This document shows positions 61,196-63,963 of a DNA stretch of 64,000 bases, piece after piece; the first letter of the stretch is position 1; the number at the start of each line of letters is the position of its first letter. Position numbers and translations under genes: made by a program. The DNA is from Glycomyces salinus. Its GTDB lineage: Bacteria; Actinomycetota; Actinomycetes; Mycobacteriales; Micromonosporaceae. A model generated the notes under the pieces. The model was given only the letters and a program-made list of their open reading frames with translations, was not told the origin of the DNA and did no database searches. The DNA lies in assembly GCF_016428645.1 (NCBI RefSeq), contig NZ_JAELXW010000017.1, positions 62,001 through 126,000 on the forward strand, read 5' to 3'.

Positions 61196-62161
61196 GTGAC
61201 GATCTACCGCAGCACCGACCAAGGGCCGGTCCCCGTCGACGGCGAGCCCCGGCCGCGGCGCACCTCCTGGCGCTCGGCCCCGCAGCTGGCCGTCCGCGGC
61301 GGACTGATCGGCGCCGCCGAAGGGGTGCCCGCGATCTCAGGCGGCACCATCGCGCTGGTCGTCGGCCTGTACGACCAGTTGATCGACGCGGCCGGACAGC
61401 TGCTGCACGCCCTGCGCACTCTGGTCTCGGGCATCGCGAGGCGACGCGGACTGGCCGAGGGCAGGCGGGCGCTGGCGGCCATAGACTGGCCGCTGCTGGT
61501 GCCGGTCCTGGTCGGGATGGCCGTCTTCCTGCTGCTGGCCATCAAGACCATCGCCCCGCTGCTGGAGGAGCATCCGGTGCCGACGCACGCGGCGTTCTTC
61601 GGCATGATCGCCGCCTCCGTCGCGGTGCCGCTGCGGATGATGCCGCAGCGGTTCCGCCTCCTGGACGGCGTGTTGCTGGTCGCCGGTGCGATCGCGGCGT
61701 TCCTCCTGACCGGGCTGCCGCAGAACGAGGTGAGCGACCCACCGCTGTGGCTGGTGTTCTTCGGCGCCGCCATAGCCATCAACGCCCTGGTGCTGCCGGG
61801 AGTCTCGGGCTCGTTCCTGCTGCTGGCCATGGGGTTGTACGTGCACGTCGAGCACGCCCTGGACGAGCGGAACCTCGCCTTCATCGGCGTCTTCGCGCTC
61901 GGGGCGATGGTCGGCCTGGGCTCGTTCGTCAAGCTCCTCCAGTGGCTGCTGCACCACCGCCGGCAGGCCATGATGGCCGTCCTGGCCGGCCTCATGCTCG
62001 GCTCGCTCCGGTCCCTGTGGCCGTGGCAGAGCGAGCAGAACGAGCTCCAGGCCCCGACCGGGTCGTTGGTCGGCCCGATCCTGCTGGCCCTGCTGGGGGC
62101 CGTGGTCATCGTCGTGGCCATCGTGTGGGAAGCCAAGCAGCACAAGAACACCGCGGATTAG
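61196..62161 (+). CDS. DUF368 membrane protein, undecaprenyl-phosphate translocase (PopT family)
   Basis: 321 residues with about nine helices. The family motif GGLIGAAEGVPAISGGTIALV (residues 34-54, shown in part) includes the repeated P-[AG]-ISGGT, with the mirror motif LVLPGVSGSFLLLAMGLY in the second half, an inverted-repeat arrangement. DUF368 proteins recycle undecaprenyl phosphate to the inner leaflet for wall synthesis. GTG 61196 follows TACTCT at 61182-61187, so leaderless translation is plausible; ATG 61145 is the alternative. Nearby genes share the envelope theme. Confidence 0.87.
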   Translation: MTIYRSTDQGPVPVDGEPRPRRTSWRSAPQLAVRGGLIGAAEGVPAISGGTIALVVGLYDQLIDAAGQLLHALRTLVSGIARRRGLAEGRRALAAIDWPLLVPVLVGMAVFLLLAIKTIAPLLEEHPVPTHAAFFGMIAASVAVPLRMMPQRFRLLDGVLLVAGAIAAFLLTGLPQNEVSDPPLWLVFFGAAIAINALVLPGVSGSFLLLAMGLYVHVEHALDERNLAFIGVFALGAMVGLGSFVKLLQWLLHHRRQAMMAVLAGLMLGSLRSLWPWQSEQNELQAPTGSLVGPILLALLGAVVIVVAIVWEAKQHKNTAD

Positions 62162-62303
62162 GGCAAAACCGGCGCAGAGTGTCGGCTGGGCGACTTTTTC
62201 GAATTTCTTCGCGTCCGGGCGTAACCGCTTCCGCTTCCGGCCAGTTATTCAGGGTGGCTGCGCGGCCAAGTCAGCTCGCTCTGAAGAAAGGCAACTCAAG
62301 CAG

Positions 62304-62684
62304 ATGGAAATGCGCACTATGCGTAAGGCGGCCCTCGTCGGAGGACTCGCCACGGGGGCTCTGCTGTTCGCGGGATCGGGCGCTCAGGCCTCAGAAGCCG
62401 CGCCCGAGCAGCTCGGTGGCCTGCCCACCGACGGTCTCCCGCTGCCCGCCAACGGACTTCCCGTCCCCACCGACGCGATTCCGGGGCTCGACGCGGTCCC
62501 GGCCGACCAGCTTCCCGGCGTGGGCGCCGTCCTGCCGCAGCAGGAGGACCACCCGGACGCCGTGGCCGACAAGAAGCACCAGGGCGACGACCAGCAGCAG
62601 GGCCAGGCCGAGGCCCCCGCTGGTCCCGTCGACGACCTGCTCGGCAACCTCGGGGGCGGCCTGCCGGTCCCGCTGCCGTTCTAA
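62304..62684 (+). CDS. Small exported Pro/Gly-rich protein
   Basis: 126 residues, no recognised domain. Signal peptide (RKAALVGGLATGALLFAGSG, cleaved near AQAS) and a mature chain of repeats around GLP-[LV]-[PA]-x-[DN] (TDGLPLPANGLPVPTDAIPG), followed by a polar Gln/Asp stretch and PVDDLLGNLGGGLPVPLPF. There are no cysteines. Its C-terminal style (L-x-GNLGGGLPV) also occurs in the end of the chaplin-like protein downstream, so the two may act together on the cell surface. AAAGG upstream. Confidence 0.68.
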   Translation: MEMRTMRKAALVGGLATGALLFAGSGAQASEAAPEQLGGLPTDGLPLPANGLPVPTDAIPGLDAVPADQLPGVGAVLPQQEDHPDAVADKKHQGDDQQQGQAEAPAGPVDDLLGNLGGGLPVPLPF

Positions 62685-62692
62685 GAAGACGA

Positions 62693-62743
62693 CCGCCGCG
62701 GCCGCGAACGGACATCACCGTCGCATCCATTCGCGGCCGGCGG
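62693..62743. terminator. Hairpin after the small exported protein
   Basis: About 16 base pairs with a 2-base bulge and a 21-base loop (arms 62693-62708 and 62730-62743), nine bases past the stop. Confidence 0.55.
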
Positions 62744-62949
62744 AAACCGGAGGGCGGGCCGGCCCCGAGCCACGGGCCGGATCCAGGGCGGCCCGCCGCC
62801 GGATTACAACCACTCCCGGCTTCGACGACACCCGCTTCCCGCGAGACCCAGCTCGCCTTCGGAACGCCCACAAGTCGTCGGGGCCACGGAGCTTCACGGG
62901 GGATACGTGATGGAACAACGAGAACGATTTCCCTGAAAGGTGACGGTTC

Positions 62950-63963
62950 GTGAACTACTCATGGGCACGTAAGACTGCACAGACCTCTGTCATCACCGCG
63001 GGCGCGGTGGTCCTCGCCGGAGCAGGCCAGGCCTACGCCACCGGTGACGACATCCACACGCACGACCAGGTCGGCGCGGTTTCGGGCAACCAGGTGGTCG
63101 CGCCGATCCAGGCGCCGGTCAACATCTGCGGCGTCGCCGCCGCGGTCCTCGGCCACGCCGAGGCCGGGTGCGAGGGCGGCTCCGAGGCGACCTTCGGCTC
63201 CACCGGAGGCGACCTGCACACCCACGACAACACCGGGCTCGGCAACGGCAACCAGGTGTTCGCCCCCGTCCAGGCTCCCACCGAGGTCAGCGGCATCGCC
63301 GCGGCCGTCGGCGGGGCGGCCGGGGCCGAGTCGGAGGGCGGCTCGCAGGCGAACCTGCCCGAGTCGGGCAACGCCGGCGGCGACACCACCACGCACCACA
63401 ACATCGGCGCGCTGTCGGGCAACCAGCTGCTCGCGCCGATCCAGGCGCCCATCAACGCCTGCGGCAACGCGATCGCAATCGGCGGCGCCAGCGGCGCCGA
63501 GTGCGAGGGCGGCGCGGACGCCTCCTACGGCGGCTCCGGCGGCATGGAGACCCACGACAACACCGGCCTGGGCAACGGCAACCAGCTGTTCGCCCCGATC
63601 CAGGCGCCGATCAACGTGTGCGGCAACGCCGTCGCGATCCTCGGCACGGCCTACGCCAGCTGCGAGGGCGGCTCCGAAGCCGAAATCGACGAACCCGACG
63701 ACGAAGGCAGCCACAAGAAGCGCGACGGCTACCAGGAGTCGGCCGAGACCGAGTCGGCGGACCTGGACGTGGCCGAGGAGCAGCTCCCGACCGGGGGCGC
63801 GCCCGGTCTCGACGCCGTCTCCGGCGCGGCCGACACCGTGACCGGGAACCTCCCGGTCCAGGACGTGCCGCTCGCCGGCGGCCTGCTCGGCAACGCCTCC
63901 CCCGAGGGTGTTGCCGACACCGTCTCCGGCGTCACCGAGACGGCCGGAGCCGGCCTGCTCTAA
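62950..63963 (+). CDS. Chaplin-like surface protein with four repeats, one lacking its cysteines
   Basis: 337 residues. Signal peptide (TSVITAGAVVLAGAGQAYAT) and four chaplin-like repeats with the core GNQ-x-x-AP-[IV]-QAP. Cysteine pairs 14 apart: C60/C74, C171/C185, C224/C238; in repeat 2 the same positions are S114 and S128. Repeats 1 and 3 share an ALSGNQ-type start, repeats 2 and 4 a GLGNGNQ start, so the array looks like a doubled pair. The C-terminus is acidic, then LPTGG near residue 275 (sortase-like, but internal) and a hydrophobic end. GTG 62950. Chaplins coat aerial hyphae in Streptomyces. Confidence 0.78.
   Translation: MNYSWARKTAQTSVITAGAVVLAGAGQAYATGDDIHTHDQVGAVSGNQVVAPIQAPVNICGVAAAVLGHAEAGCEGGSEATFGSTGGDLHTHDNTGLGNGNQVFAPVQAPTEVSGIAAAVGGAAGAESEGGSQANLPESGNAGGDTTTHHNIGALSGNQLLAPIQAPINACGNAIAIGGASGAECEGGADASYGGSGGMETHDNTGLGNGNQLFAPIQAPINVCGNAVAILGTAYASCEGGSEAEIDEPDDEGSHKKRDGYQESAETESADLDVAEEQLPTGGAPGLDAVSGAADTVTGNLPVQDVPLAGGLLGNASPEGVADTVSGVTETAGAGLL

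Follow-up and report, generated by a model that had tools for sequence, protein, structure and literature searches.

Introduction

Chaplins are surfactants that form amyloid at interfaces (PMC5618241). Streptomyces produces long chaplins (ChpA-C), with two tandem PF03777 domains and a C-terminal sortase signal, and short chaplins (ChpD-H) with one domain of about 55 residues, and the two forms appear to coexist universally in sporulating actinomycetes (PMC3079736). Three GN motifs spaced 12–13 residues apart define the long forms (PMC13251363). Most domains carry two cysteines, for which both an intramolecular (PMC5618241) and an intermolecular (PMC3079736) disulphide have been offered; a minimal strain whose ChpH lacks its cysteines is severely impaired in aerial hyphae, and such a protein still forms fibrils in vitro (PMC3079736). 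A cysteine-free domain has been reported for ChpE and ChpB, and chaplin-like genes are known beyond Streptomyces, in Stackebrandtia nassauensis and others (PMC4255298). ChpE, a short chaplin without cysteines, is thought to coordinate assembly, and is essential in the wild type but dispensable in some mutant backgrounds (PMC3079736). The cysteine-free second domain of ChpB appears in PMC13251363 only; PMC3079736 and PMC5618241 name ChpE alone.

It is an open question why a chaplin coat should combine members that have cysteines with members that do not. Here we examine a 64,000-nucleotide stretch of the Glycomyces salinus genome (hereafter the window). The organism is a filamentous soil bacterium, and its genus forms aerial mycelium and may be counted as sporulating. 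The window holds a gene for a chaplin-like protein with four domains, one of which has serine at both cysteine positions. In the literature, covered mostly at title and abstract level and thinly for subscription journals, we found no account of a four-domain chaplin that is encoded by one gene, lacks an anchor and keeps one repeat constantly free of cysteine; papers mentioning both Glycomyces and chaplins were unrelated, as judged by title and start of abstract.

Results and discussion

A divergent chaplin-like protein with four domains

The gene and its parts, all on the forward strand, are as follows:

62950–63963, +, chaplin-like protein with four domains (337 residues, GTG start; PF03777 E 3.2e-28, 97.8 bits, cut-off 21)
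62950–63039, +, putative signal peptide, residues 1–30, cleavage after AYA (read by eye; W5, K8 and A30 invariant in alignment A1)
63061–63186, +, repeat 1, residues 38–79 (Cys60/Cys74; 33.4 bits)
63223–63348, +, repeat 2, residues 92–133 (cysteine-free, Ser114/Ser128; 22.2 bits)
63394–63519, +, repeat 3, residues 149–190 (Cys171/Cys185; 35.5 bits)
63553–63678, +, repeat 4, residues 202–243 (Cys224/Cys238; 32.6 bits)
63691–63960, +, acidic C-terminal tail, residues 248–337 (pI 4.05, 19-residue hydropathy at most 0.68, last 15 residues free of K and R)

A profile search matched PF03777 (ChpA-C) to four stretches of the reading frame, each above 21 bits, and the combined score, 97.8 bits against a cut-off of 21, places the repeats within the chaplin family; a placement outside it would have refuted the original prediction. 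The kinship proposed in the original prediction is thus the best reading of the protein. The NCBIfam search gave a chance-level match only, and a sequence search of the Protein Data Bank returned no chain at E 1. The putative signal peptide is clear by eye and conserved in the genus.

The protein belongs to neither described class. The part after residue 30 is 307 residues long with four domains, rather than about 55 residues with one as in short chaplins, and it has twice the domains of a long chaplin without a conserved LPXTG. By our reading of the sequence the first GN motif is present in all four repeats, the second in repeats 3 and 4 only and the third in none, so we call it a chaplin-like PF03777 protein rather than a canonical chaplin. 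Like ChpA-C, it has tandem PF03777 domains, after a putative signal peptide, and paired cysteines (in repeats 1, 3 and 4, though not in repeat 2); unlike ChpA-C, it has four domains rather than two, cysteines 14 rather than 18 residues apart, [DE]GG in place of the third GN motif and no sorting signal. The cysteine-bearing domains are as hydrophobic as those of the Streptomyces type, with a mean GRAVY of 0.50 for 63 Glycomyces domains compared to 0.51 for ten Streptomyces-type domains.

For domains of the Streptomyces type, which match PF03777 over its full length (up to 105.9 bits), 13 of 16 loci yielded 22 readable segments. The cysteines lie 18 residues apart in 21 of these; the remaining one, the second domain of the two-domain chaplin L134, has Ser/Ser in their place, also 18 apart. 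The spacing of 14 therefore marks the Glycomyces kind as a divergent subtype. AlphaFold2 predicted strands throughout the repeats, with a mean pLDDT of 39 for the whole protein (22 sequences) and 46 for repeats 3–4 (54 two-domain segments); both predictions are of low confidence, so neither establishes a fold.

One chaplin gene in each Glycomyces genome

We searched the source genome (5.37 Mb in 211 contigs, 98.77% complete) with the PF03777 profile. These four domains were its sole matches above the cut-off, with two further matches below it (E 0.6 and 1.1). Each of the 22 Glycomyces genomes, comprising this one and 21 congeners, has one gene with four PF03777 domain matches. The profile found no match over the cut-off outside that gene in the 21 congeners, and no short chaplin in any of the 22 genomes; a fifth match in one congener (G005), on a separate contig, scored 19.5 bits and falls below the cut-off. 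If the genus is counted as sporulating, it departs from the remark that long and short forms coexist (PMC3079736). Elsewhere in the source genome lies a gene for a SapB/AmfS-type lanthipeptide precursor (L159, contig C113, 72288–72431; 47.2 bits against a cut-off of 25).

We consider it reasonably likely that the gene encodes a divergent, unanchored, single-gene hyphal coat protein of the chaplin type, secreted, acidic and four-domained, and the only chaplin found in Glycomyces. The profile match, the status as sole chaplin gene, the genus-wide conservation and the SapB/AmfS-type gene all support this role, which the original prediction had raised as a possibility. We envisage export through the Sec pathway; the four repeats would assemble as chaplins do, forming a film of amyloid type at the interface with air, where it would reduce surface tension and cover the aerial hyphae. 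Several observations count against this reading: published chaplin systems consist of short forms and anchored long forms, and Glycomyces has neither; no repeat has the third GN motif described for long chaplins, and only repeats 3 and 4 have the second; and Glycomyces repeat 2, at a mean GRAVY of 0.18, is less hydrophobic than the cysteine-free domains of other genera (0.50).

The protein could instead be a secreted adhesin or matrix amyloid whose repeats serve surface attachment or hyphal aggregation rather than the raising of aerial hyphae. Chaplins have a part in attachment too, and some of the organisms with chaplin-like genes are not known to form aerial growth (PMC4255298); the absence of a wall anchor and the strongly acidic character (pI 4.05) would suit such a protein as well. 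We judge this alternative unlikely, given that presence in all 22 genomes and the SapB/AmfS-type gene fit a developmental role, with which a function in adhesion as well would be compatible.

The two cysteine sites change together

Every Glycomyces protein has exactly six cysteines, confined to repeats 1, 3 and 4, giving the pattern C-S-C-C in all 22 species. The cysteines within each pair are 14 residues apart, and repeat 2 has serine at both sites in every species, including G012 and G021, both columns being invariant; the arrangement read from the single sequence (three spaced pairs, serine twice in repeat 2) is therefore a feature of the genus. At the first repeat 2 site the serine codon is AGC or AGT in twenty species and TCC or TCG in two. 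A switch between AGY and TCN needs two substitutions, so serine has apparently been kept at this site.

The original prediction had taken the double serine for a coordinated loss, a claim that found strong support among relatives. Using a profile trained on the Glycomyces repeats we tabulated, with duplicates removed, 208 domains in the relatives fetched, a count that does not include the four domains of the window. Both cysteines are present in 159 of these domains, neither in 49 and exactly one in none, so that the sites go together throughout. A cysteine was scored as present when found no more than one residue away from site 1 or, for site 2, 11–18 residues beyond site 1; six Dactylosporangium domains, in which each cysteine is shifted by one residue, were thereby scored as having both. 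The table drops L114, L118, L119 and L120 as duplicates of L063, L073, L059 and L057, and lacks L115, L116 and L126, in which the Glycomyces-trained profile found no domain although PF03777 had matched; contig ends truncate L122 and L125.

The coupling also holds when shared ancestry is considered. We masked the two sites when building the 96-domain tree described below, which rests on 40 columns. Its well supported branches provide eight independent contrasts, and both sites change together in all eight (p 0.0078). The cysteine-free state requires 13 changes on the best tree, at least eight of them forced by supported branches. Concerted evolution acting within arrays might produce a similar pattern in part, although it would still imply that the cysteine-free state was kept through homogenisation.

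Because none of the 208 domains has a single cysteine and the eight contrasts agree, the simplest reading is one disulphide within each cysteine-bearing domain, and the all-or-none pattern provides comparative evidence for such a bond. Repeats 1, 3 and 4 would then each close one disulphide across their 14-residue spacing.

Multi-domain arrays and cysteine-free domains in relatives

The original prediction regarded four domains as unusual on the ground that chaplins normally have one or two. The premise is right for Streptomyces (PMC3079736, PMC5618241), but arrays of 3 to 10 domains occur in many of the relatives we examined, and 29 proteins outside Glycomyces have three or more, so the number itself does not set this protein apart. 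Of 250 genomes sampled across the family, 136 had PF03777 matches, spread over 27 of 44 genera; in a scan of named genomes, a single-protein query returned nothing and a query with alignment A1 returned 43 loci.

At least one cysteine-free domain occurs in 24 of the 29 non-Glycomyces arrays, a proportion that is not an unbiased rate because loci entered the set through their similarity to the query or by our own choice. In 20 of the 24 it occupies the C-terminal position, as the last one or two domains, a pattern seen in Stackebrandtia, Catellatospora, Catelliglobosispora, one Micromonospora (L063) and the genomes G041, G082 and G130. The arrays of the four named genera resemble that of Glycomyces in cysteine spacing (14–15 residues) and have 3–5 domains with one or two cysteine-free; they differ in placing these last, where Glycomyces has repeat 2 of 4. 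In three proteins the cysteine-free domains come first: Phytohabitans maris L070, in which the first two of five domains are cysteine-free with Ala replacing Cys, and L123 and L124 of G028, a genome from another family, which have 10 and 7 domains with the first one or two cysteine-free. The 10-domain L123 also has an LPVTG motif, with a hydrophobic segment and a basic end behind it. All six Dactylosporangium proteins (L074–L079) are closed by their last domain, with Ser-Cys at site 1 and Cys as the final residue.

Two probable sister genera, G049 and G050, share with Glycomyces a set of four domains in a single gene. G050 is probably a Natronoglycomyces, a genus described as having aerial mycelium (PMC8289206), and its pattern is C-S-C-C, with repeat 2 cysteine-free as in Glycomyces. 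G049 has the same four-repeat plan with cysteines in all four repeats, and differs from Glycomyces in lacking the LP...VPG tail. Orthologues with cysteines in repeat 2, named in the original prediction as evidence that would refute it, are thus found in this one probable sister genus (L112) and in none of the 21 congeners. A cysteine-free repeat is therefore not indispensable to an array.

Could repeat 2 simply be degenerate, its cysteines lost by drift and its serines inherited without function? It has the lowest profile score of the four (22.2 bits) and is the least hydrophobic, G049 has Cys/Cys at the same sites, and all 22 species would be accounted for by a single loss that preceded the radiation of Glycomyces. 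We nevertheless regard drift as improbable: both serines are invariant in those species, the first across a two-base codon change; cysteine-free domains recur in the 24 arrays noted above; and one single origin of cysteine-free domains (26 of the 96 in the domain tree) is rejected (p-AU 0.022).

Under the coat reading, repeat 2, having lost both cysteines together, would supply in cis the function proposed for cysteine-free ChpE. As with ChpE, a cysteine-free domain is found beside cysteine-bearing ones (PMC3079736); in Glycomyces it is repeat 2 of a single polypeptide and not a separate gene product. For ChpB, a cysteine-free C-terminal domain is reported (PMC13251363). More generally, and only tentatively, arrays may be under recurrent selection for at least one disulphide-free, ChpE-like domain in cis, with Glycomyces as a minimal one-gene case at a ratio of 3:1, compared to Streptomyces, in which the two kinds are spread over several genes; the leader and tiny reading frame described below would then control dose. 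Glycomyces provides a compact natural case of mixed cysteine-bearing and cysteine-free units. With a lone chaplin gene, an array fixed at 3:1 and no short chaplin found, it allows the reason for the mixture to be tested by single-gene replacements.

Repeat order fits a duplicated pair only in part

The four repeats had been described as an ABAB array, two copies of a pair. Their spacing agrees with this, with 53–55 residues between repeats 1 and 2 and between repeats 3 and 4, and 56–65 between repeats 2 and 3 in all 22 species. The two halves of the domain disagree: for the N-terminal half ABAB wins outright in 18 of 22 species, whereas for the C-terminal half AABB wins outright in 12 and ABAB in 1. 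In a tree of 96 domains, Glycomyces repeats 1, 2 and 3 mostly group each with its own kind and the placement of repeat 4 is not settled, with repeat 1 not joined to repeat 3 nor repeat 2 to repeat 4. As the halves disagree and the tree joins neither pair, a duplicated pair fits the spacing and part of the sequence only. This tree rests on 40 columns, with 41 of its 93 inner branches drawn open; it includes the window's protein, 8 of 21 Glycomyces records, 3 of 9 Catellatospora records and the remaining loci, and omits L070, L071, L074–L079, L111 and L122–L125.

The tail and attachment of the protein

An internal LPTGG followed by a hydrophobic end had been noted, which implies a sortase anchor. 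The motif, at residues 279–283, occurs in only 3 of 22 species, the others having LPAVPG, LPVPG, LPSGG and similar sequences. Across the 22 species the tails reach a maximum 19-residue hydropathy of 0.68–1.64, without a membrane-spanning stretch, and the last 15 residues lack K or R in 21 species, with one such residue in G014. The idea of a sortase-anchored long chaplin with extra domains, held through LPTGG, can draw on the motif in the window's protein and on two sortase genes in the genome, but it is highly improbable given the rarity of the motif and a tail with neither membrane-spanning stretch nor basic end. As the protein does not look like a sortase substrate, self-assembly would have to keep it in place, or else another component, possibly its small exported neighbour.

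A conserved neighbour and leader upstream

Three further features precede the gene:

62304–62684, +, P0002, a 126-residue, probably exported Pro/Leu-rich protein ending GGGLPVPLPF and a putative partner (signal peptide read by eye)
62885–62949, +, near-invariant leader of the chaplin gene (Shine-Dalgarno AAGGTGA at 62937–62943)
62910–62936, +, possible 8-codon leader reading frame, MEQRERFP then stop (a short frame of 6–10 codons in 22 of 22 species)

The small exported partner suggested upstream proved to be a constant companion. P0002 has a match in all 22 genus genomes, is the gene immediately before the chaplin gene, in the same orientation, in all 21 named records, and ends in GGGLPVPLPF or a close variant across the genus; it had no Pfam or NCBIfam match. 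Both P0002 and the chaplin tail contain PGLDAV, and homology between the two is unsupported (hhalign, 8 columns at 14% probability). Near the chaplin genes of G049 and G050 we found no match to P0002; a dissimilar reading frame with a signal-peptide-like start lies there between a transporter gene and the chaplin gene. Farther upstream, the window also encodes a polyprenyl-phosphate transporter of the VCA0040 kind (PF04018), and a transporter of this type lies upstream in G049, in G050 and in 6 of 21 named Glycomyces records (at most 5 kb fetched), a fraction that makes its link to the chaplin gene a loose one.

The leader stands out from its surroundings. Ten-base blocks across 62885–62944 have identities of 0.80–0.99, compared to 0.32–0.84 in the remaining intergenic region, and mean column identity is 92% (16 of 22 species aligned). 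It occurs once in its own genome with up to three mismatches allowed. Gaps inside the possible leader reading frame are multiples of three except in L045, which has a one-base gap. An Rfam search of 62100–63000 returned only a miRNA match, far below the gathering score and on the opposite strand. In the predicted fold, UCAC pairs with GGUGA of the Shine-Dalgarno sequence (z -2.16, in a region too invariant for covariation), and it is possible that such a helix would hide the ribosome-binding sequence. The last part of the leader, CCCTGAAAGGTGA, also precedes the chaplin genes of G049 and G050.
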